NCBI RefSeq assembly: GCF_002261345.1
Contig: NZ_NEVT01000009.1
Coordinates: forward strand, 310,001 to 374,000
Origin: Bordetella genomosp. 2
Lineage (GTDB): Bacteria > Pseudomonadota > Gammaproteobacteria > Burkholderiales > Burkholderiaceae_B
Direction: 5' to 3'
DNA length: 64,000 bases
Part shown: positions 29,771-38,990 of the stretch, in pieces
How positions within the stretch are numbered: position 1 is the first letter of the stretch
Layout of the letters: each line of letters begins with the position of its first letter
Program-made: the position numbers and the translations under genes
Notes under the pieces: model-generated
Database searches by the model: none
What the model saw: the letters and a program-made list of their open reading frames with translations, nothing else
What the model was told of the DNA's origin: nothing

Positions 29771-31116
29771 GCCCGCCCGTGAAGGCGGCCGCCCCGCATG
29801 CCGGGCTGTCGGTGCTGGATGCGGTCGCGGTGCTGGTCGGCGTGGTGATCGGCATCGGCATCTTCGGCTTCCCGCCGCTGGTCGCGCAGCATTCCAGTTC
29901 GCCCATGATGTACATCGCGCTGTGGCTGGCCGGCGGCGGCGTAATGCTGCTGGGCGCGCTGTGCTACGCCGAGCTGGGGTCCGCCTACCCCGACTCCGGC
30001 GGCGAATACCGCTACCTGAGCCTGGCCTGGGGCGCGCGCACGGGCCTGATGTTCGCCTGGGCGCGCTGCACGGTCATCCAGACCGGCGCGATCGCGGCGG
30101 TGGCGTTCATCTATGGCGACTACGCGCAGCAGCTGCTGGACCTGGGACGCTATGGCGCGGCCCTGCACGCGGCGCTGGCCGTGGTGGCGCTGACCGCCCT
30201 GAACATCGCCGGCACGCAACCGACCAAGCGGCTGCAGCTCGTCTTCACCGCGCTGACCGTGACGGCGCTGGCGGCAATGGTGGTGGCCGGCATGCTGGCC
30301 GGCGACGCGCCGGCCCGGGCGCTGGGCGCCGCCGCCCCGCCGGCGCCGGGCGGCGTGTTCGGGTTGGTGGGCATGGGCATGGTCTATGTGCTGCTGACCT
30401 ACGGCGGCTGGAACGAATCCGCCTATCTGTCCGGCGAACTGCGCGACCCGGCCCGCAACATGAGCCGGGTGCTGTTGATCGGCACGGCCGTGGTCACGGG
30501 GATCTACTTGCTGACCAACCTGGCGCTGCTGGAGATCTTCGGCCTGGACGGGCTGCGCCAGGCCAGCGCGGTGGGCGCCGACGTCATGCGCATCGCCGCC
30601 GGCCCGTATGCCGCGATCCTGCTCAGCCTGCTGGTGTGCTGCACGGCGCTGAGCACCATCAACGGCACCATCATGACCGGCGCGCGCGTCTATGTGGCCC
30701 TGGGCGACGACATCCCCGCGCTGCGCCGCCTGGGCGGCTGGTCGGCGCGCGGCCAGGCGCCCTCGGCCGCGCTGCTGGCGCAGGGAGCCATCACGCTGGC
30801 GCTGGTGGGCTTCGGCGCCCTGGCGGAGAACGGCGTGCAGGCCATGGTGGCCTATACCGCGCCGGTATTCTGGTTTTTCATGCTGCTGGTGGCGGCCTCG
30901 GTGTGGCGGCTGCGGCGCCTCGATCCGCACCGGCCGCGGCCGTTCAGCGTGCCGCTGTATCCGCTCACGCCCCTGCTGTTCGCGCTGAGTTGCGCCGGCC
31001 TGGTGTGGTCGAGCGCGCGCTATGCCGGCCTGGGGGCGCTGCTGGGCATCGTGGTGCTGGCGGCCGGCCTGCCGCTGCTGCGCATGGCGCGGCCGCGGCC
31101 GTCCACGGCGTCTTGA
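29767..31116 (+). CDS. APC-superfamily amino acid permease
   Basis: A 449-residue transporter with about 12 transmembrane segments. The first helix carries the GVVIGIGIFGFPP signature of APC permeases. The SAYPDSGGEYRYLSLAWGARTGLMFAWA and TYGGWNESAYLSGELRDPARNMSR blocks are typical. The start ATG 29767 overlaps the methyltransferase stop (ATGA), so the two are coupled. Such permeases import or exchange amino acids by proton symport or antiport; the substrate is not evident. A perfect GC hairpin follows downstream. Confidence 0.87.
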   Translation: MSPPVKAAAPHAGLSVLDAVAVLVGVVIGIGIFGFPPLVAQHSSSPMMYIALWLAGGGVMLLGALCYAELGSAYPDSGGEYRYLSLAWGARTGLMFAWARCTVIQTGAIAAVAFIYGDYAQQLLDLGRYGAALHAALAVVALTALNIAGTQPTKRLQLVFTALTVTALAAMVVAGMLAGDAPARALGAAAPPAPGGVFGLVGMGMVYVLLTYGGWNESAYLSGELRDPARNMSRVLLIGTAVVTGIYLLTNLALLEIFGLDGLRQASAVGADVMRIAAGPYAAILLSLLVCCTALSTINGTIMTGARVYVALGDDIPALRRLGGWSARGQAPSAALLAQGAITLALVGFGALAENGVQAMVAYTAPVFWFFMLLVAASVWRLRRLDPHRPRPFSVPLYPLTPLLFALSCAGLVWSSARYAGLGALLGIVVLAAGLPLLRMARPRPSTAS

Positions 31117-31146
31117 CGCGGCGGGCCCGGCCGCCGCGCGTGGCGC

Positions 31147-31164
31147 GGGCGGGCGCGCCCGCCC
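31147..31164. terminator. Bidirectional hairpin between convergent genes
   Basis: A perfect 18-base palindrome, GGGCGGGCGCGCCCGCCC, lies in the 60-base gap between the APC permease (plus) and the lipid operon's last gene (minus). No T run is present on either strand, so termination is inferred from position and stem strength. Confidence 0.45.
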
Positions 31165-31176
31165 AGACTGCTGGCG

Positions 31177-32070
31177 CTATGCCGGGCCGGCCGCGGGCGC
31201 CTCGGACTCCGCTTTCATCTGCATCAGCAGGCTGTGCAGCATTTCGGTCGACAGGCCATGCAGCACCAGGCGGTAGCCGGCCCGCAGGGTCGACATGGGC
31301 ACCAGCGGGTGCTTGTTGTTGACCAGTATCAGGTGCTGCGGCGCGCCCAGGATCTGCGCGGCATAGATGCCGACCGTCTCGTCGAGCTGCAGCGAGTTGG
31401 CGGCGCGCCAGAAGTCGTTGTCGGTCAGCATCAGCTGGTACAGAGGCGTGAACAGCTCGATGGCGCTCTGCAGGTCGAGGAAATTGCGGCGCCGCCGCGG
31501 CATGTCCTCGAGCCGCAACCCGGGGTCGCGCAACATGGAGAAATCCACCCGCGGCGGCGCCTGCATGTACGTGCCGGCCTCGCGCTGCGCGCGGTTCAGG
31601 CGGATCACGAAATTGAACAGGTTGAGATCGTGCTTGACGAACATTTCGTCTTTCAGGTCGGCGATGCGCGCAGGCTCCAGCGGCGTGGTGGCCACCGGCA
31701 CGGGGGCGTTGCGGCCGATGAACGCCAGGATCTGCGAACCCAGGTGGAAGTGGCGCAGGATCAGCCAGTTGGCCTCGGGCGAGACGAAGTGCTCCAGCCC
31801 CCAGGCCAGGATGCGGTGCAGCAGCTTCGAGTGCGACCAGCGGCGCGGCAGGAACGTCTTGATCACCTGGATCAGGATGATGAATGCGCGCGCCAGCGGC
31901 CGCAGGAAAGGCAGCAGGTACTGCCGCGAGCCGCTGCTGGAGTCGGCCAGCCAGGCCTCTTTCACGTCATCGGGCAGCGGCGTGCTGCGATCCAGGTACA
32001 GGGCCAGCCACGGGCTGGGGTCGGCGGGATCGTGTTCGCGGGTCAGGAACTCGGGCGGGCGGGACGTCAT
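31177..32070 (-). CDS. Uncharacterised protein, last gene of the lipid operon
   Basis: A 297-residue protein I cannot assign with confidence. One hydrophobic stretch near residues 52-72 (LPFLRPLARAFIILIQVIKTFLP) may attach it to the membrane. The region 85-115 (AWGLEHFVSPEANWLILRHFHLGSQIL) and the block HDLNLFNFVIRLNRAQREAG look conserved. There is no motif of a known enzyme class and no signal peptide. Its ATG overlaps the stop of the ketosynthase fusion gene (ATGA), so it is almost certainly made together with that enzyme and may be an accessory or partner for its lipid product. Confidence 0.6.
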   Translation of the reverse strand: MTSRPPEFLTREHDPADPSPWLALYLDRSTPLPDDVKEAWLADSSSGSRQYLLPFLRPLARAFIILIQVIKTFLPRRWSHSKLLHRILAWGLEHFVSPEANWLILRHFHLGSQILAFIGRNAPVPVATTPLEPARIADLKDEMFVKHDLNLFNFVIRLNRAQREAGTYMQAPPRVDFSMLRDPGLRLEDMPRRRRNFLDLQSAIELFTPLYQLMLTDNDFWRAANSLQLDETVGIYAAQILGAPQHLILVNNKHPLVPMSTLRAGYRLVLHGLSTEMLHSLLMQMKAESEAPAAGPA

Positions 32071-33998
32071 GCGGGGTCGGCCTCCATCACGTGATGGAAC
32101 TGCATCAGGTAGAGCGCGGCGGTGCGGCGGGCGGTATCGACGATGCGGCGCTCGGCCTGGCCGTGCTCGTCCATGTCCAGCGCCAGTTCCACCGCCATCA
32201 GCCAGCGCGCCAGGTGGTTTTCGTCATTGTGGCCGTGATATTCGAGGAAGCGGAAACGATCCGGCGGCAGGTCCAGGCTGGCCTTGAGCAACGGCAGCAA
32301 GGCCGGCACGATGCGCTGGCCGGTGCCTTCGATGATGTAGATGGCGCCCAGCAGGCCGACCGGGTCGCGCGTGGCGGCCAGCGCGTGCAGATAGGCATCG
32401 AGCGCCTCGCCGCCCGGATTGCGGCGCAACGCGTCGATATCGGCCACCGCGCCGCCGGCCTTGCGGTAGTCCTGGAACAGGATCTGGAAGTCGTCCTGCT
32501 CTTCGCCGGCGTGCACGCCGATCAGCTCGGCCAGCGGCCGGTAGGCCTCGCTGAGCGAGGCCGCGCCTTCGCGCATCCACTTGCTGCCCTCGCGCACCTG
32601 CGGGATCCAGTGCGCCATCCAGTTCAGATAGTCGTCCGGGGTGAAGCGGCGTTCGCGCAGCTTGCGCACCACCGGCGTGCGCCACACGCGCGAGCGGTAG
32701 TCGTGCCAGATCGAGGCCAGCTCGGTCAGCAGCGGGCCCAGGCCTTGCGGCGCGACAGCGGGATCGTGCGGCGGCGCGATGGCGGCGGCGTCGTCGGACA
32801 GCGTGGCGGCGGGCATGGCCGCGGCAGAGGCCGGCGCCGCCGCCGGGACGCGCGCGGCGGCATCGGCGGCCTCGGCCTCGAACAGCATGTAGGCCGTCAT
32901 GAAGCGGCCCGATTCGGGGATGTAGCAGAACACCTGCTGGCCCGGCTCGAGCGCGCGGGTTTCCAGGAACTCGGCCAGCATGATCAGGATCGACGCCGCG
33001 CCCGTGTTGCCGCGCCACGCCAGGTTGCTGAACCAGCGCTCGCGCGCGATGGCCAGCCCGGCCTTGTCCATCAGGTCCTCGACCACGGGGATGAATTTCT
33101 CGGACGAGTAATGGCACAGGAAATGGTCGACGCGGCCGGGGTCGACCCAGCCATCGCGCACCAGGCCGGCGTACTCATGCACGCCGATATCGAACAGGTG
33201 CGGCAGCAGGCGGATGTCCTGGCGCAGCGCCAGCGCACCGGCGGCTTCGGCCTCGCCCCAGGACGGGTAGTCCAGGTGGCCCCGGCCGCCGCCGGCCGGC
33301 AGGCCCAGCTGCATGCACACCGGATAGTCGCCCGAGAACGAACGCTGGTGGATCCACTTCAGCCGCAGCCGCACGCCGGTGGACGCGCCCGGAACCGGCG
33401 CGCCGCGCTGGCCCAGCAACAGCGCGCCGGCGCCGTCCGACAGCATCCAGCGCAGGAAATGCGCGTCGAAGTCGGCGTCGTAGCCGCGCGCCGCGAAACG
33501 CGAGCGCTTGAACAGGCGCGACGGCATTTCGCTGGCCACCGCCAGCGCATGGCGATGCGCGCCCAGCTCGATGCCTTGCGCCGCCGCCTGGACGGCCGAT
33601 ACGCCGGCCGCGCAGATGCCGTGCACCGACAGGGTTTCCATGGGCGGAGCCGCCAGCTCGCCCTGGATCATGTTGGCGAAGCCCGGCATCAAGGCGTCGC
33701 CGCCCGACGAACCGCAGGCCAGCAGCGAGACGTCGGCCAGGCCGCGATCCTGCCGGCGCAGGCAGTCGCGTATGGCGCCGGCGGCCTGCGCCGCGTTGGT
33801 CCAGCGCGTGTTGCCGTCCGCGTCGATGGCGTAGTAGCGCTGCTTGATGCCGTTCTCGGCCAGGATGCGCTGCTTGATGCGGCCGGACAGGCGGTTCAGG
33901 GGCGCGATGTAGCGGTCCATGTCCTCGTTGGCCACGGGCTCGCCCGGCATGAAATAGCCGGCGCTTTCCAGGTAGACACGGTCAAAGGCAACAGGCAT
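32067..33998 (-). CDS. StlD/DarB-like beta-ketoacyl synthase fused to a haem-oxygenase-fold domain
   Basis: A 643-residue two-domain protein. Residues 1-375 form a KAS III-type ketosynthase resembling the StlD/DarB enzymes of dialkylresorcinol and cyclohexanedione synthesis. The presumed Cys-His-Asn triad is C129 (SVHGICAAG), H296 (FLCHYSS) and N331 (AWRGNTGA). A Pro/Ala-rich linker (about 378-415) leads to a second, all-helical domain (416-643) of the TenA/PqqC/haem-oxygenase type. It carries candidate metal ligands H496, E499/E500, E557, H588, D592 and H595. The start at 33998 lies 15 bases after the desaturase. No DarA-like cyclase is nearby, so the product need not be a resorcinol. Confidence 0.75.
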   Translation of the reverse strand: MPVAFDRVYLESAGYFMPGEPVANEDMDRYIAPLNRLSGRIKQRILAENGIKQRYYAIDADGNTRWTNAAQAAGAIRDCLRRQDRGLADVSLLACGSSGGDALMPGFANMIQGELAAPPMETLSVHGICAAGVSAVQAAAQGIELGAHRHALAVASEMPSRLFKRSRFAARGYDADFDAHFLRWMLSDGAGALLLGQRGAPVPGASTGVRLRLKWIHQRSFSGDYPVCMQLGLPAGGGRGHLDYPSWGEAEAAGALALRQDIRLLPHLFDIGVHEYAGLVRDGWVDPGRVDHFLCHYSSEKFIPVVEDLMDKAGLAIARERWFSNLAWRGNTGAASILIMLAEFLETRALEPGQQVFCYIPESGRFMTAYMLFEAEAADAAARVPAAAPASAAAMPAATLSDDAAAIAPPHDPAVAPQGLGPLLTELASIWHDYRSRVWRTPVVRKLRERRFTPDDYLNWMAHWIPQVREGSKWMREGAASLSEAYRPLAELIGVHAGEEQDDFQILFQDYRKAGGAVADIDALRRNPGGEALDAYLHALAATRDPVGLLGAIYIIEGTGQRIVPALLPLLKASLDLPPDRFRFLEYHGHNDENHLARWLMAVELALDMDEHGQAERRIVDTARRTAALYLMQFHHVMEADPA

Positions 33999-34013
33999 GG
34001 AAGAACGGGGCTC

Positions 34014-34931
34014 CTATTCGTGAGCGATGTGTTCCGGGCGCATCAGCGAGCGGCTGCGGCAGCGCGGCCAGGCCAGCCCGAGCACGAACACGCGCAGCAT
34101 GTATGGCGCCAGCCCGGGTTCGAGCAGCGCCGGATCGATGCAGTGGCGATAGCGCGCGGCGTGCAGCCGCGCCAGTTCCGACCAGTGCGCGCGCGCATGC
34201 TCGTGGTGCGCGGTGTGCAGGCCGATATTGAACAGCAGCGGGTTGACCAGGCCTTCGAAATTGCGCGCGTAAGTCAGCCGCGCGTGGCGCTGCGGCCCGC
34301 CGTCGGCGTGCGCATGCTGCAGGTAATTGGTGGCCAGCAGCCAGTGCAGGCCGTGCAACTGCGGCAGGATCACCAGCACCAGCGCCTTGCCGGGGTTGGC
34401 CGCCAGCAGGCCGCCCCACAGGCCGAGCCAGGCGGCGTATTGCCAGAGGCAGTAGCGCCAGGCGCCGGGACGATGCCGGCGCAGCCGGCCGAGCCAGCGC
34501 CAGAACAGCGGGTACAGCGTCCAGGCGGCCTGGAACGGGTGCAGCAGATAGCCGGCCAGGTGGTTGGTGTCGCCGCCGTAGCGATACGTGCGCGCCAGGT
34601 CGCGCGCGCCGTGCTTGTGGCGATGATGGTTGCCGGCATGGGCGGGAAAGAACACGAAGGTCGGGTGCCCCTGCAGCACGGTCAGGGCCAGGTCGGTGGC
34701 CCGGTTGGCCCAGCGCCGGCGCCACATGCGCAGATGGGTGTGGTTGTGGTGGATCACGCCGACCCCCAGCGTCAGGAACAGCATCAATCCGTACAGCAGC
34801 GCGTGCACGCCATGGACCCATTGCCAGGCGGCCAGCGCGGGCAGCGCGGCCATGTAGGCCAGGCTCTGCGCGTCGCGCCAGTGGCGCAGCGCGCGGGGCC
34901 GACGGGCCGGCGGCCCGGACGCGGCGCTCAA
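34014..34931 (-). CDS. Fatty acid desaturase family protein
   Basis: A 305-residue membrane di-iron enzyme with all three histidine clusters: HHNHTH in the first box, HAGNHHRHKH in the second and HTAHHEHARAH in the third. Several hydrophobic stretches, including LAYMAALPALAAWQWVHGVHALLYGLMLFLTLG, place it in the membrane. It should introduce a double bond, or a hydroxyl, into an acyl chain. There is no good ATG; a TTG at 34931 overlaps the TGA stop of the upstream hydroxylase gene (TTGA). That is the likely coupled start, though an internal ATG is possible. It is the second gene of a four-gene operon feeding the ketosynthase fusion. Confidence 0.82.
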   Translation of the reverse strand: MSAASGPPARRPRALRHWRDAQSLAYMAALPALAAWQWVHGVHALLYGLMLFLTLGVGVIHHNHTHLRMWRRRWANRATDLALTVLQGHPTFVFFPAHAGNHHRHKHGARDLARTYRYGGDTNHLAGYLLHPFQAAWTLYPLFWRWLGRLRRHRPGAWRYCLWQYAAWLGLWGGLLAANPGKALVLVILPQLHGLHWLLATNYLQHAHADGGPQRHARLTYARNFEGLVNPLLFNIGLHTAHHEHARAHWSELARLHAARYRHCIDPALLEPGLAPYMLRVFVLGLAWPRCRSRSLMRPEHIAHE

Positions 34932-35692
34932 CCGCCCCTCGCCGCCGGGCCGCGCGCCAGCGGGGCCGCCGCGGCATCGGCCGGCAGCCGCGTGCGGAAC
35001 AGGCGGTCCATGAAGGTGAACTGGAACCCGTAGTTGCCGTGATAGCAGGCGTGATGCAGATGATGCCGGCGGCTGGCGGCGAACCAGTGCGCGTACGACG
35101 CGCGCGGGAAGAAATCGTAGTTGGCGTGCCCCACGCAATTGAAGAACAGGCTGAACAGCGGCACCGAGAACAGCGACCAGAAGCTGAAGTCGTGCAGCAC
35201 CATGGGCAGCAGGATCACGTTGCCCAGCATCAGCGCCTCGACCGGATGGAAACTGTAGGTGGAAAACGGCGTGGTCACCACGGAGCGGTGGTGCGGCAGG
35301 TGGAAGCGGCGCAGCAGGCGGGTATGCAGTAGCCGGTGATTGATCCAGAAGTGCACGTCGTTCCAGGCCACCAGCGCCAGGATCTCCAGCGCGATGCGGC
35401 CTGCGCCGGCGTCCGGGTCCAGCCGCGCCCAGCCCAGTTGGAGCAGCCCCCAGGGGAAGATCATGCCCAGGCCGAAGATCAGCACCGAGACGCCGGACTG
35501 CGTCAGTTCGCGCCGCAGCTGGCCCGGCGCGAGCGGGCGCGGATCCAGCACGGCGCCGATGCCCAGGGCCGGCAGCACGTGGCGCGTCAACAGCCAGGTG
35601 GCCGCGCCGAACAGCAGGTAGATGCCGCCGAAGAACAGCAGGCCCGCGGCCATCACCTGCCAGGCCGAAAGCGATTGGAAAGCATGCGCCAT
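34928..35692 (-). CDS. Sterol desaturase/fatty acid hydroxylase family protein
   Basis: A 254-residue membrane di-iron oxygenase of the fatty acid hydroxylase superfamily. Two N-terminal membrane segments are followed by HFWINHRLLH, RFHLPHH and HHLHHACYH, the expected HX3-4H and HX2HH clusters. It also has the NCVGHANYDFFP histidine. It probably hydroxylates or otherwise oxidises an acyl or isoprenoid lipid. It is the first gene of the tight operon with desaturase, ketosynthase fusion and an unknown protein. The 92-base gap to the DapA-like gene upstream may contain its promoter. Confidence 0.85.
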   Translation of the reverse strand: MAHAFQSLSAWQVMAAGLLFFGGIYLLFGAATWLLTRHVLPALGIGAVLDPRPLAPGQLRRELTQSGVSVLIFGLGMIFPWGLLQLGWARLDPDAGAGRIALEILALVAWNDVHFWINHRLLHTRLLRRFHLPHHRSVVTTPFSTYSFHPVEALMLGNVILLPMVLHDFSFWSLFSVPLFSLFFNCVGHANYDFFPRASYAHWFAASRRHHLHHACYHGNYGFQFTFMDRLFRTRLPADAAAAPLARGPAARGG

Positions 35693-35784
35693 GAAAGTCC
35701 GAAGCCCCAGCCGGAGCCGCCCAGGATGGCCGCATCATAAGCAATCCGCCGGCTTCCCGCCACGCCGCGCCGGGGCGGCGCGCT

Positions 35785-36711
35785 TCACGCCGCCAGGGCC
35801 TGCGCGGGGAACTGGCGATCCAGCGCGGCCACCGCCATCGCCAGTTGCTCGGCCAGGGCGGCGCTGGCGCGCGGCATGGGCGCCCGCAGCACGTCGGACA
35901 GCAGCCCTTGCCGCGCCAGCCAGGCCTTCAGCGGCCCCGGGTTCGGCTCGGCGAACACCAGCCGGATCACCGGCGCCAGCGCATGGAACAGGCGCCGCGC
36001 CGGCTCCAGTTGCTGCGCCCGCGCCGCCCGGTCCATCGCCACGAACAGGTCGGGCCGGATGTGGGCGGCCGCCGCGATCATGCCGCTGCCACCCAGGCAG
36101 AGGGTGGACAACGCGTGCAAATCCTCGCCGGCCATGACCCGCAGCCCGCCGTGGGCGATGAGCGCCACGGTCTTGTCCAGCGAACCGCCGCAATCCTTCA
36201 CGGCGACGATATTGGCGTGCCCGGCCAGCGCCAGCAGCGTATCGGTGTCGAGCACGGCGCCCGTGCGATAGGGGATGTCGTACAGCACCAGCGGCACGCG
36301 CGAAGCGTCGGCCAGGGTCTGGAAATAGGCCAGGGCGCCCTGCTGGCCCGGCCGCACATAGTAGGGCGCGGGCGCCAGCACGCCCGCCAGCGGGCGGGTG
36401 CCGAACGCGGCCAGGCGCTGCAGCACGTGTCCCTGGTGATTGCCGGCCAGGCCCATGACGACCGGCAGCCGGCCGGCCTCGGCCAGCACGGCATCCAGCA
36501 CCGCCAGTTGTTCGGCGTCGTCCAGCGCCGCGGCTTCGCCGGTGCTGCCGCACACCACCAGGCCGTCCACGCCCGCGGCGGCGTAATGGCGCACCAGTCG
36601 GCGCAGGGCGCCGCCGTCGACGCCGTGCGCGGTGAACGGCGTCACCAGCGGAATCCAGACGCCCTGGAATACGGCGGATGCGGATGAAGAAGAAGTCGAA
36701 GAAGCTTGCAT
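35785..36711 (-). CDS. DapA-family (dihydrodipicolinate synthase/N-acetylneuraminate lyase) aldolase
   Basis: A 308-residue class I aldolase. It has the GSTGEAAAL pyruvate-binding motif, Tyr144 in LYDIPYRTG and the Schiff-base Lys172 in IVAVKDCGG, plus SGMIAAAAHIRPDLF later. All catalytic residues are present. It could condense pyruvate with aspartate semialdehyde, but many paralogues act on sugar acids or hydroxyproline derivatives, so the pathway is open. ATG 36711 lies under a Ser-rich start (MQASSTSSSSASAVFQG). Two inverted repeats 93-135 bases upstream suggest specific regulation. Confidence 0.82.
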   Translation of the reverse strand: MQASSTSSSSASAVFQGVWIPLVTPFTAHGVDGGALRRLVRHYAAAGVDGLVVCGSTGEAAALDDAEQLAVLDAVLAEAGRLPVVMGLAGNHQGHVLQRLAAFGTRPLAGVLAPAPYYVRPGQQGALAYFQTLADASRVPLVLYDIPYRTGAVLDTDTLLALAGHANIVAVKDCGGSLDKTVALIAHGGLRVMAGEDLHALSTLCLGGSGMIAAAAHIRPDLFVAMDRAARAQQLEPARRLFHALAPVIRLVFAEPNPGPLKAWLARQGLLSDVLRAPMPRASAALAEQLAMAVAALDRQFPAQALAA

Positions 36712-37022
36712 GACACACTCCTGAGGACCGCTTGGGGACCGTGCAGAAGTGCTCGGGATGCCGGGGAAAAAGCCGCAGCGCGCCGCGCCGCCGGAGTGCC
36801 GCCGTTCCGTCGCCCATCTGACGGAACAGCCAGCTCCGGTCAGATGAGCCGCTGTTTTTTGGATTTCAGGCCGATGCGACGCGCCGCCGCGCCAGGGGCG
36901 AGGCGGCAGGCAGCGAAGCAAGGGGCCGGAAACATGGAAATGGGACGGATGCGCGAACGGGATAAGGGCAATCTACCGGGCGGCCATGCCGGTGTCAACC
37001 GGCAGCCGCCCGGCCGCCTGGC
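36712..37022. promoter_or_regulatory. Upstream region of the DapA-like gene with inverted repeats
   Basis: These 311 bases between the BCCT transporter and the DapA-like gene hold no convincing coding sequence. GTTCCGTC (36804-36811) is repeated inverted as GACGGAAC (36820-36827). Overlapping it, CATCTGAC (36815-36822) pairs with GTCAGATG (36839-36846). Two such overlapping dyads at about -93 to -135 from the start look like operator sequences for a dimeric regulator. The remainder is GC-rich and shows no clear promoter. Confidence 0.45.
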
Positions 37023-38990
37023 TCAGCGCACGATGTGCAGGTAGTGTCGATGGCGTTCGTACTGGTCGAGGATGTCGCCGATGACGGCGTCCCGGCTCCA
37101 TCCCATGATGTCGTAGTCCTGCCCGCCCTCGCGCAAGTGGACTTCGGCGCGGAAGTACTTGCGCTCTTCCTCGTCCGTTCCGTCGTTCGGCGTCAGGCTC
37201 GGGCGGACAAAGGCCTGGGGCTGCACCGAATAGGAGAAGTCCAGGTACTCGCCGTGGGAAACTTCCATCGCCGCCGAGCCATTCTCTTCGTTCTCGCGGA
37301 CTTCCACCACGTAGCCCTGCTTGCGCAATTCCTCGGCGACGTCTTCCAGGGCCGGCTTCACCACTTCCGCGATAAAGCGCAGGACGTGCGCGCGGCGCGG
37401 CATCATCACCATGTTGCGCAGGCGGCGCTCCCAGGACTGCCCGCCGCGTGCCGGCCGCGACAGGGTCAGCGACTGGTAGCGGATGCCGCGCTTGGTGGCG
37501 TCGAGCTTGAGCGCCCTGAACAAGCCCCACATGGCCAGCAGCAGGATGATCGAGAAGGGCAGCGCGCTGGCGATGGTGGCGGTCTGCAAAGCGGTCAGGC
37601 CGTCGGCCAACAATAGCGCGATGGCGACCGCGCCCATCGACAGCGACCAGAAGATGCGCTGCCAGACCGGCGTGCGCTCCGCGCCGCCGGATGCCAGCAA
37701 GTCCACCACCAGCGCGCCGGAATCGGCCGAGGTGACGAAGAACACCACCACCATGGCGATGGCCACGAACGAAATGACATTACCCCAGGGCATCTGCTCA
37801 AGAAAGGCGAATAGCGCCAGCGTGGTATCGCTTTGCACCGTCTCGGCGAAACCCTGGACCTTGTCGATCAGGATCATGTGGATGGCCGTGTCGCCGAACA
37901 CGGTCATCCAGAACAGCGTGAAGCCCGTCGGCACCAGCAGCACGCCGCTGACGAATTCGCGGATGGTGCGGCCGCGCGAGATGCGGGCGATGAACAGCCC
38001 CACGAACGGCGACCAGGCGATCCACCAGCCCCAGTAGAACAGCGTCCAGCCGCCGATCCAGTCGGTGGGCTCGTACGCATAGAGATTGAAGGTCTTGTTG
38101 ACGATATCCGAGAGGTAGGCGCCGGTATTCTGCACGAAGGTCTGCAGCAGGAACACCGTGGGGCCGACCACCAGCACGAACACCAGCAGTATCACCGCCA
38201 GCGCCAGGTTGGATTCGGACAGGATGCGGATGCCCTTGTCCAGGCCGCTGGCGACCGACACCGTCGCCAGCGCGCAAGTCGCGATGATCAGCATGATCTG
38301 GACCGGCACGCTCACCGGCAGGCCGAACAAGTGATTCAGGCCGCTGTTGATCTGTGCCACCCCCAGCCCCAGCGAGGTCGCCACGCCAAGCACGGTGCCG
38401 ATGATGGCGAAGATATCCACGGCATGGCCGATCGGCCCGTGGATGCGATTGCCGATGAGCGGATAGAGGGCGGAGCGCAGCGTCAGCGGCAAGCCGTGGC
38501 GATAGGAGAAAAATGCCAACGTCAGGGCCACGATGGCGTAGATCGCCCAGGCATGCAGGCCCCAATGGAAGAAGGTCAGCTTCATCGCCTCGCGGGCAGC
38601 CGCCACCGTGGCGCCCTCGCCGACCGGCGGCGTCATGAAGTGCATCACCGGCTCGGCCACGCCGAAGAACATCAGGCCGATGCCCATGCCGGCGGAGAAC
38701 AGCATCGCGAACCAGGTGAAATTGCGATAGTCGGGTTCGCTATGATCGGGACCGAGCTTGATATCCCCGTAGCGGCTGACCGCCAGGAACACGACGGCCA
38801 GGAGAATGAGCGCCACCACCAGGATGTAGAACCAGCTGGCGTTGCCCAGGATCCAGCCCTGGACCGTGTCGAACAGTCTTTGTGCGAACTGGGGCGCCGC
38901 GATAGCGAATACCACCAGCAGCAGGGTGAATAGGGCAGCGGTATAAAAGACGGGCCGCTGGATCGTCATGCGCGGGGATGGCTCCTGCAA
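37023..38990 (-). CDS. betT: BCCT-family betaine/carnitine/choline transporter
   Basis: A 655-residue transporter with 12 transmembrane segments and a cytoplasmic C-terminal tail of about 150 residues, the length class of BetT. Family signatures are WFAMLFSAGMGIGLMFFGVAEPVMHF and WTLFYWGWWIAWSPFVGLFIARISRGRTIREF, with the Trp-rich substrate box. It imports choline or a related quaternary amine with protons, usually for osmoprotection. The C-terminal tail is expected to sense osmotic or chemical state. A second start at 38969 (MTIQRPVFYTAALF) is at least as plausible. It is the only osmolyte uptake gene seen here. Confidence 0.88.
   Translation of the reverse strand: MQEPSPRMTIQRPVFYTAALFTLLLVVFAIAAPQFAQRLFDTVQGWILGNASWFYILVVALILLAVVFLAVSRYGDIKLGPDHSEPDYRNFTWFAMLFSAGMGIGLMFFGVAEPVMHFMTPPVGEGATVAAAREAMKLTFFHWGLHAWAIYAIVALTLAFFSYRHGLPLTLRSALYPLIGNRIHGPIGHAVDIFAIIGTVLGVATSLGLGVAQINSGLNHLFGLPVSVPVQIMLIIATCALATVSVASGLDKGIRILSESNLALAVILLVFVLVVGPTVFLLQTFVQNTGAYLSDIVNKTFNLYAYEPTDWIGGWTLFYWGWWIAWSPFVGLFIARISRGRTIREFVSGVLLVPTGFTLFWMTVFGDTAIHMILIDKVQGFAETVQSDTTLALFAFLEQMPWGNVISFVAIAMVVVFFVTSADSGALVVDLLASGGAERTPVWQRIFWSLSMGAVAIALLLADGLTALQTATIASALPFSIILLLAMWGLFRALKLDATKRGIRYQSLTLSRPARGGQSWERRLRNMVMMPRRAHVLRFIAEVVKPALEDVAEELRKQGYVVEVRENEENGSAAMEVSHGEYLDFSYSVQPQAFVRPSLTPNDGTDEEERKYFRAEVHLREGGQDYDIMGWSRDAVIGDILDQYERHRHYLHIVR

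Follow-up and report, generated by a model that had tools for sequence, protein, structure and literature searches.

Four minus-strand open reading frames fill positions 31177-35692 of the window, by which is meant the whole 64,000-nucleotide stretch of Bordetella genomosp. 2 DNA that was analysed. From first to last, they encode a membrane hydroxylase, a membrane desaturase, a ketosynthase that carries a heme-oxygenase-like (HDO) domain as a C-terminal fusion, and a DUF6999 protein (Table 1). The original prediction of a tightly coupled set of this composition is borne out by the reading frames and their Pfam assignments, as well as by the gene junctions: the end of the hydroxylase gene (34928) and the start of the desaturase gene (34931) share the bases TTGA, a gap of 15 bases (34013-33999) precedes the ketosynthase, and the end of the ketosynthase-HDO gene (32067) shares ATGA with the start of the DUF6999 gene (32070). 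The TTG start of the desaturase is a mechanical choice, and its frame stays open further upstream. The dN/dS ratios lie between 0.11 and 0.34 in 12 comparisons (four genes against three relatives), which, together with the preservation of gene order described below, argues that the operon is not a chance arrangement. A scan of positions 30900-36300 found neither promoter nor terminator, and a phage origin of the ketosynthase-HDO gene was rejected, no match to it being present in a phage collection.

Table 1. Coordinates of the four genes and of the two domains of the fusion protein within the window.
Feature	Position	Strand	Details
FA_hydroxylase-family membrane di-iron enzyme, first gene	34928..35692	-	254 aa; PF04116
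FA_desaturase-family membrane enzyme	34014..34931	-	305 aa from TTG; PF00487
Ketosynthase-HDO fusion gene	32067..33998	-	643 aa
StlD/DarB-type ketosynthase domain, N-terminal	32871..33998	-	residues ~1-376 of 643; C129, H296, N331
HDO domain, C-terminal, heme-oxygenase-like	32067..32798	-	residues ~401-643; PF14518
DUF6999 protein, last gene	31177..32070	-	297 aa; PF22523

The assignment of two membrane di-iron enzymes ahead of the ketosynthase is likewise upheld by Pfam scores and histidine boxes. The hydroxylase scores 74.4 bits against FA_hydroxylase (cut-off 31) and contains the boxes HRLLH, HLPHH and HHLHH, while the desaturase, whose histidine boxes were also read by eye, scores 81 bits against FA_desaturase (cut-off 29.7). 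Neither protein matched a PDB sequence at E values up to 1.

The ketosynthase domain scores 33.2 bits against ACP_syn_III_C from Pfam (cut-off 26.6), and its best PDB match is StlD (5gk0; E = 1.1e-59), aligned over residues 6-371 and thus over the whole domain. The Cys-His-Asn triad is intact in 32 of 32 alignment rows, a FabH-like outgroup included. The best-scoring family is the StlD/DarB subfamily NF005293, at 306.1 bits (curated cut-off 450), and the DarB family NF053539 gives 245.7 bits against a curated cut-off of 550, a strict threshold that was passed in 0 of 299 sampled genomes and that seven DarA-linked ketosynthases, at 448-521 bits, also fail to reach. The earlier placement of this KAS III-type enzyme in the StlD/DarB group is therefore correct as to the nearest family and structure, but the relationship is distant: judged from its sequence, the window ketosynthase is a divergent StlD/DarB relative, and since its scores fall far below the cut-offs, its reaction may differ from theirs. 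It is 34-37% identical to the seven DarA-linked ketosynthases compared. In a tree that took in 14 fused ketosynthases, a selection of those available, 21 HDO-linked ketosynthases are separated from the DarA-linked sequences of their phylum with support 90/83; one HDO-linked clade has moderate support, and a DarA-linked Streptomyces row branches beside it. StlD is the nearest solved relative, yet its crystallised chain of 402 residues, of which 23-397 were matched, has no HDO domain.

That the C-terminal domain belongs to the HDO superfamily follows from its scores of 37.5 and 40 bits against Haem_oxygenas_2 (PF14518; cut-off 28.9). Its AlphaFold model (pLDDT 86.3) matches 3dde, CADD and UndA in Foldseek with E values of 5e-6 to 5e-4, and the TM-scores against these structures, normalised by the model, are 0.69-0.76. 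PF14518 matches 10 of 11 HDO relatives at E values up to 1, and the Pseudoalteromonas HDO has no Pfam match at 0.01. In the available parts of two sources, HDOs are reported to act on fatty and amino acids by desaturation and C-C cleavage (PMC13108848), and their metal motif is given as E-H-E-H-(D/E)-H, which includes a histidine from helix 1 (PMC11363339). The window domain does not conform to this motif, but reads E500-D503-E557-H588-D592-H595. An aspartate replaces the usual helix-1 histidine in 11 of 11 sequences, and the invariant H496 lies nearby. These six residues, also invariant, are together with H496 the candidate metal ligands, placed by sequence alignment to 3dde rather than from coordinates; because Asp stands for a canonical His, the metal site is regarded as a candidate with one canonical ligand replaced. 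The structure alignment of the HDO comprised 25 of 78 HDO loci, picked for diversity, and the window; locus L121, selected by the script, was left out by hand. The window HDO resembles UndA, CADD and the uncharacterised 3dde in fold, in PF14518 and in its carboxylate and HxxxDxxH positions, but differs from them in the helix-1 aspartate and in its fusion to a ketosynthase.

The last gene had been described as encoding an unknown protein. Its family is indeed without a function, although it does have a name: the protein matches DUF6999 (PF22523) with 442.8 bits against a cut-off of 27. DUF6999 has invariant His, Asp and Glu residues. Its structure alignment took in 34 of 80 loci, picked for diversity, and the window. 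Comparisons of sequence and fold with the PDB detected no relative of characterised function: three sequence comparisons gave no match, one chance match and no match, and a Foldseek search with the model (pLDDT 77.7) found no matching fold, the best E values being 0.67 in the PDB and 0.47 in a viral library. A hidden homology to the HDO domain was also rejected for now, with a profile comparison probability of 0.2% and Foldseek E values of at least 0.47 from a model of moderate confidence. No paper was found under the name DUF6999. The protein is likely to be a second catalyst, one whose active site is polar or contains a metal.

A genome scan yielded 471 confirmed DUF6999 stretches, 80 of which were kept. 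All four genes occur in order in 77 of these 80 loci, so that the set, with DarA outside it, is kept as a unit well beyond this genome, among others in Bordetella, Achromobacter, Pigmentiphaga and Variovorax. Two of the three remaining loci, both from Variovorax (L112 and L127), retain all four genes in an operon split into two places, and an apparent loss of the desaturase and ketosynthase-HDO genes there was ruled out. Of 151 genomes from the same family as the window, 38 contain ketosynthase-HDO, which DUF6999 accompanies in 37; 113 genomes have neither, and one has only a truncated ketosynthase. DUF6999 is thus a near-obligate partner of ketosynthase-HDO. The ketosynthase and HDO domains are fused in 99 of 100 two-domain loci from the window's order and its kin, a set that holds five duplicates, and where they are unfused the two genes adjoin each other (7 of 7 loci). 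The flanks of 20 loci had little in common; the DUF6999 gene of L031 overlaps at its end with a diacylglycerol kinase gene, and that of L032 is followed by an MFS-acyltransferase-AMP ligase gene.

Six loci from a different class of proteobacteria and one Pseudoalteromonas plasmid encode the ketosynthase, HDO and DUF6999 in adjacent, separate genes, in every case without the hydroxylase and desaturase beside them, and these three proteins constitute the deeper core of the unit. The membrane pair is also missing at two or more loci within the window's own order. Since the core occurs without it, the pair looks like an addition made in that order. The original suggestion that the ketosynthase joins chains oxidised or desaturated by the membrane enzymes is consequently not needed.

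A DarA-type cyclase had been noted as missing from the operon, and this holds for most of the non-Variovorax carriers tested: a DarA profile search found no such aromatase in 48 carriers (the window's genome and 47 others), nor in 13 further non-Variovorax carriers, so that DarA was not found to accompany the operon in all carriers. It was found in 28 of 31 Variovorax carriers, and in the 10 loci examined of these 28 it adjoins its own, other DarB. The three control genomes supplied rows of the profile and match it by construction, whereas the Variovorax matches are independent positives. With one protein tried in each, neither NCBIfam nor Pfam yielded a family for DarA, and its identity is based on gene order. 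Beside the seven DarB relatives of loci L158-L164 lie proteins of ~305, ~135 and ~330 aa, and in L159 the ~330-aa protein is BtrH_N and is followed by an ABC ATPase. This arrangement is that of Azoarcus, given in the available part of the source as darA-darB-darD-darE(BtrH-like)-darF(ABC) (PMC3949708).

We consider the chances evenly balanced that the operon encodes a dedicated, uncharacterised two-chain pathway of the StlD/DarB kind, in which an O2-dependent HDO would replace DarA; judged by titles and abstract openings, none of the papers listed in the literature searches describes the operon. The ketosynthase would join two fatty-acid-derived thioesters and probably close a ring of the cyclohexanedione type, in the manner of its relatives. 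The HDO would then oxidise this product with O2 at its metal site, performing DarA's aromatase function or a related desaturation or decarboxylation, and it is likely this domain, rather than the membrane enzymes, that stands in for DarA. DUF6999 would probably act as the second catalyst, and in the window's order the hydroxylase and desaturase would modify the alkyl chains, either ahead of the condensation or following it. DarA/DarB clusters such as that for arcuflavin in Azoarcus sp. BH72 (PMC3949708) share with the operon, as far as the available part of the source goes, a StlD/DarB-type ketosynthase with a Cys-His-Asn triad and an expected two-chain lipid chemistry. Unlike them, the operon has no DarA, darD, BtrH-like darE or ABC genes beside it, but instead has an HDO that is fused or adjacent in carriers, DUF6999, and two membrane enzymes. 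A more specific proposal, tentative and rather doubtful, is a one-polypeptide synthase whose ketosynthase would close a two-chain ring that the HDO, through its E-D-E-H-D-H residues and H496, would aromatise or over-oxidise with O2 in place of DarA, with DUF6999 as a new family of metalloenzymes that would work on this product too, a lipid class undescribed so far.

The kinship of the ketosynthase with StlD/DarB would also accord with the production of ordinary dialkylresorcinols, the ketosynthase serving as DarB, an unrelated enzyme or spontaneous chemistry performing the aromatisation, and HDO and DUF6999 tailoring later. The DarB score and the lack of DarA do not fit a dialkylresorcinol pathway, and the association of HDO with nearly every carrier, together with the equal constancy of DUF6999, exceeds what optional tailoring would lead one to expect. 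Moreover, the Variovorax carriers with DarA pair it with its own DarB where this was examined, so that simple redundancy is unlikely, and we judge this explanation unlikely as a whole. A role in modifying the acyl chains of phospholipids or membrane lipids in general, as opposed to making a secreted metabolite, appears improbable. Two membrane di-iron enzymes and the lipid-related neighbours of DUF6999 in L031 and L032 point in that direction, yet these neighbours are single cases among flanks that share little, and two-chain ketosynthases are not known to have a role in phospholipids.

An equally improbable route would have the ketosynthase form an open beta-keto acid head-to-head, as OleA does, and the HDO decarboxylate it oxidatively, as UndA does, to give an olefin or a ketone with a long chain, on which the membrane enzymes would carry out further oxidation. 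The structure 4wx0, in which UndA binds a beta-hydroxy acid, does rank fifth among the folds nearest the HDO model. However, the best family and the best PDB match of the ketosynthase are StlD/DarB-type, and no further ole-type gene was seen among the proteins read around the operon. The glutamate base of OleA lies 26 residues ahead of its active cysteine. The window ketosynthase has L/M/P at positions 103-105 and thus no glutamate at the spacing tested for PpyS, 24 residues ahead of Cys129, a comparison made by spacing and not by alignment with OleA or PpyS. Both of these enzymes join two acyl chains, as is expected of the window ketosynthase, and their bases are given as E105 in PpyS and E117 in OleA in the available part of the source, where the head-to-head enzymes MxnB and CorB also have no such glutamate (PMC4578411); the difference from PpyS is accordingly weak evidence, and the absence of the glutamate is not decisive.

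Should the HDO indeed replace DarA, a young oxygenase superfamily would gain a reaction and DUF6999 a role, and because ketosynthase and HDO are fused, one protein suffices to test this. DUF6999 is also carried by Caulobacter vibrioides.

The four genes of the operon fill the interval listed for them in the table and are as tightly coupled as the original prediction described, with a TTGA overlap, a 15-base gap and an ATGA overlap at their junctions. Pfam assigns the products to FA_hydroxylase, FA_desaturase, ACP_syn_III_C together with Haem_oxygenas_2 in a single 643-residue protein (ketosynthase-HDO, HDO denoting its C-terminal heme-oxygenase-like domain), and DUF6999. Values of dN/dS between 0.11 and 0.34, obtained in 12/12 comparisons of the four genes with three relatives, indicate that purifying selection acts on all of them. 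The genome containing the window measures 5.02 Mb.

The operon is a conserved, uncharacterised biosynthetic unit whose occurrence goes well beyond this single genome. Two locus sets, overlapping in five loci, were examined for conservation of the four proteins as a unit. In the first, comprising 20 loci of 16-18 kb each, the set is complete in 17; L046 is missing the desaturase at the locus and has a fragment of it (residues 189-296, 69% identical) at another site of its genome, L031 has a broken, 37% identical desaturase and no hydroxylase in its genome, and L032 is missing both. For the second, named genomes were scanned by DUF6999, which confirmed 471 stretches; among the best 80, 77 carry all four on a single strand, in the operon's order and within a span of 5 kb, and the closest named relatives of the window's DUF6999 are from Bordetella (88-92% identity). 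The remaining three are L122, a 3.3 kb contig, and Variovorax loci L112 and L127. The flanks of the 20 loci have genes in common in near relatives only, with the exception of one gene family that recurs at varying positions in about eight loci. Likewise, the dihydrodipicolinate-synthase-family and BCCT transporter genes upstream of the window operon are kept with it in near relatives only. At L031, the gene after DUF6999 encodes a diacylglycerol kinase, and the two overlap at the DUF6999 end, a single-case link to lipids.

Coordinates of the operon, its split forms and neighbouring genes
Feature	Sequence	Coordinates	Strand
Four-gene operon	window	31177-35692	minus
Dihydrodipicolinate-synthase-family gene	window	35785-36921	minus
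BCCT transporter	window	37023-38990	minus
Hydroxylase + DUF6999, Variovorax genome 1	L112	7207-8870	
Desaturase + ketosynthase-HDO, Variovorax genome 1	L192	5963-8785	
Hydroxylase + DUF6999, Variovorax genome 2	L127	3764-5427	
Desaturase + ketosynthase-HDO, Variovorax genome 2	L193	5845-8667	
Diacylglycerol kinase gene	L031	6174-6557	minus
MFS-acyltransferase-AMP-ligase protein	L032	2700-6098	minus
DarB-like ketosynthase and linked genes	L169	4703-11092	

In the two Variovorax exceptions, DUF6999 directly follows the hydroxylase, and the desaturase and ketosynthase-HDO genes lie side by side at another place in the same genomes; the operon is split in two, with all four genes retained. Across the family of the window, ketosynthase-HDO is present in 38/151 genomes (34 with a single full-length match, three with two pieces and one, G092, with a partial match), and DUF6999 in 37/151, all of them within the 38, G092 being the exception. 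This genome, one of a pair of odd cases (L170/L171), retains the hydroxylase, the desaturase and a ketosynthase that runs to roughly residue 430; the 11 kb retrieved contain no HDO, and a search of the genome found no DUF6999. In the other, G011, a frame change breaks the ketosynthase, and a search of the genome found neither hydroxylase nor desaturase.

DUF6999 was detected in 6/349 genomes sampled across the window's phylum, in 6/337 sampled across the class of genome G373, probably Alphaproteobacteria, another class of that phylum, and in 1/14 control genomes (Caulobacter vibrioides). At all six loci from the class of G373 (L032, L133-L137), ketosynthase, HDO and DUF6999 are separate adjacent genes, and the same order is found on a plasmid of Pseudoalteromonas sp. 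THAF3. There, DUF6999 was confirmed by Pfam; the HDO gene, whose annotation reads iron-containing redox enzyme, had no match in the Pfam search and shares 32% identity with the HDO domain of the window. The six genomes of G373's class yielded no desaturase homologue, and their hydroxylase matches reached at most 34% identity. Therefore, the core is ketosynthase, HDO and DUF6999; the membrane pair of hydroxylase and desaturase looks like an add-on, encountered in the window's order alone, chiefly in named genera of the Burkholderiales. Within that order and its named kin, ketosynthase and HDO form one open frame in 99/100 loci holding both domains. In L032, a 1133-aa MFS-acyltransferase-AMP-ligase protein follows DUF6999.

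DarA, the partner of DarB annotated as an aromatase in PMC3949708, had been called missing beside the operon. Closer DarB relatives (448-521 bits) occur in seven genomes, and their neighbourhoods match the Azoarcus dar cluster described there. A profile built from four DarA-like proteins of these genomes matched 0/48 operon carriers; three control genomes that it matched had themselves supplied profile rows. Among 44 named carriers, the profile matched 0/13 outside Variovorax and 28/31 Variovorax, the latter being independent positives, with no match in the two genomes with a split operon. Variovorax paradoxus S110 is listed in PMC3949708 among the genomes mined for DarAB. Since DarB adjoins DarA in 10/10 Variovorax loci examined (10 of the 28), this DarA most probably works in a dar cluster distinct from the operon. 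DarA does not accompany all carriers and is not part of the set.

The closest solved relative of the ketosynthase domain is StlD, and the triad C129, H296 and N331 is present in 32/32 alignment rows, including a FabH-like outgroup. In the 32-row tree, the 14 fused ketosynthases cluster together (support 100/100), as do 21/21 HDO-linked ketosynthases with moderate support (90/83), set apart from seven DarA-linked and two Bacteroidota ketosynthases. A Streptomyces row with a linked DarA-like gene is placed beside the HDO-linked ketosynthases; its branch is long and weakly supported (88/68), and its position counts against a clean split between HDO-linked and DarA-linked enzymes. On L169, a 55 kb linear plasmid of Streptomyces sp. 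NBC_00008, a DarB-like ketosynthase is found with genes for an ACP, a DarA-like hypothetical protein, an FAD monooxygenase, FabF and a P450. Unlike PpyS, the window ketosynthase has no Glu at the spacing given in PMC4578411, as compared by spacing; this weighs little, because MxnB and CorB are likewise described there without such a Glu.

The predicted structure of the HDO domain (pLDDT 86.3) matches 3dde, CADD and UndA; 3dde, an uncharacterised heme-oxygenase-like protein of solved structure from Shewanella denitrificans, is the nearest relative by both sequence and fold. The published metal motif, E-H-E-H-(D/E)-H, takes its first two residues from helix 1 and is matched by roughly 85% of the sequence groups compared in PMC11363339. 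Across 11 HDO sequences from three lineages, the invariant candidate residues are H496, E500, D503, E531, E557, H588, D592 and H595. E500 and D503 align opposite the E and H of 3dde, so that Asp is predicted to replace the His at the second motif position, and H496 could supply a third His.

Relatives of the ketosynthase, as outlined in PMC4578411, join a beta-ketoacyl and an unsaturated acyl thioester into cyclohexanediones, and known HDO-fold members, in the account of PMC13108848, use O2 for desaturation and C-C cleavage of fatty and amino acids. Whereas dar clusters contain DarA, the window operon has the HDO fold in its place. In the simplest reading, the ketosynthase product would be oxidised by HDO, and in the window's order the hydroxylase and desaturase would add chain oxidation. 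Judged from its genes, the operon is predicted to encode an uncharacterised variant of the StlD/DarB-type pathways.

For DUF6999, the best PDB match to the predicted structure (pLDDT 77.7) had an E of 0.67. A hydrophobic stretch at residues 52-70 suggests membrane contact. H107, H147, D148, D199, D230, H254, H271 and E276 are among the residues common to 11 diverse DUF6999 sequences, a pattern that fits a putative metal or polar active site.
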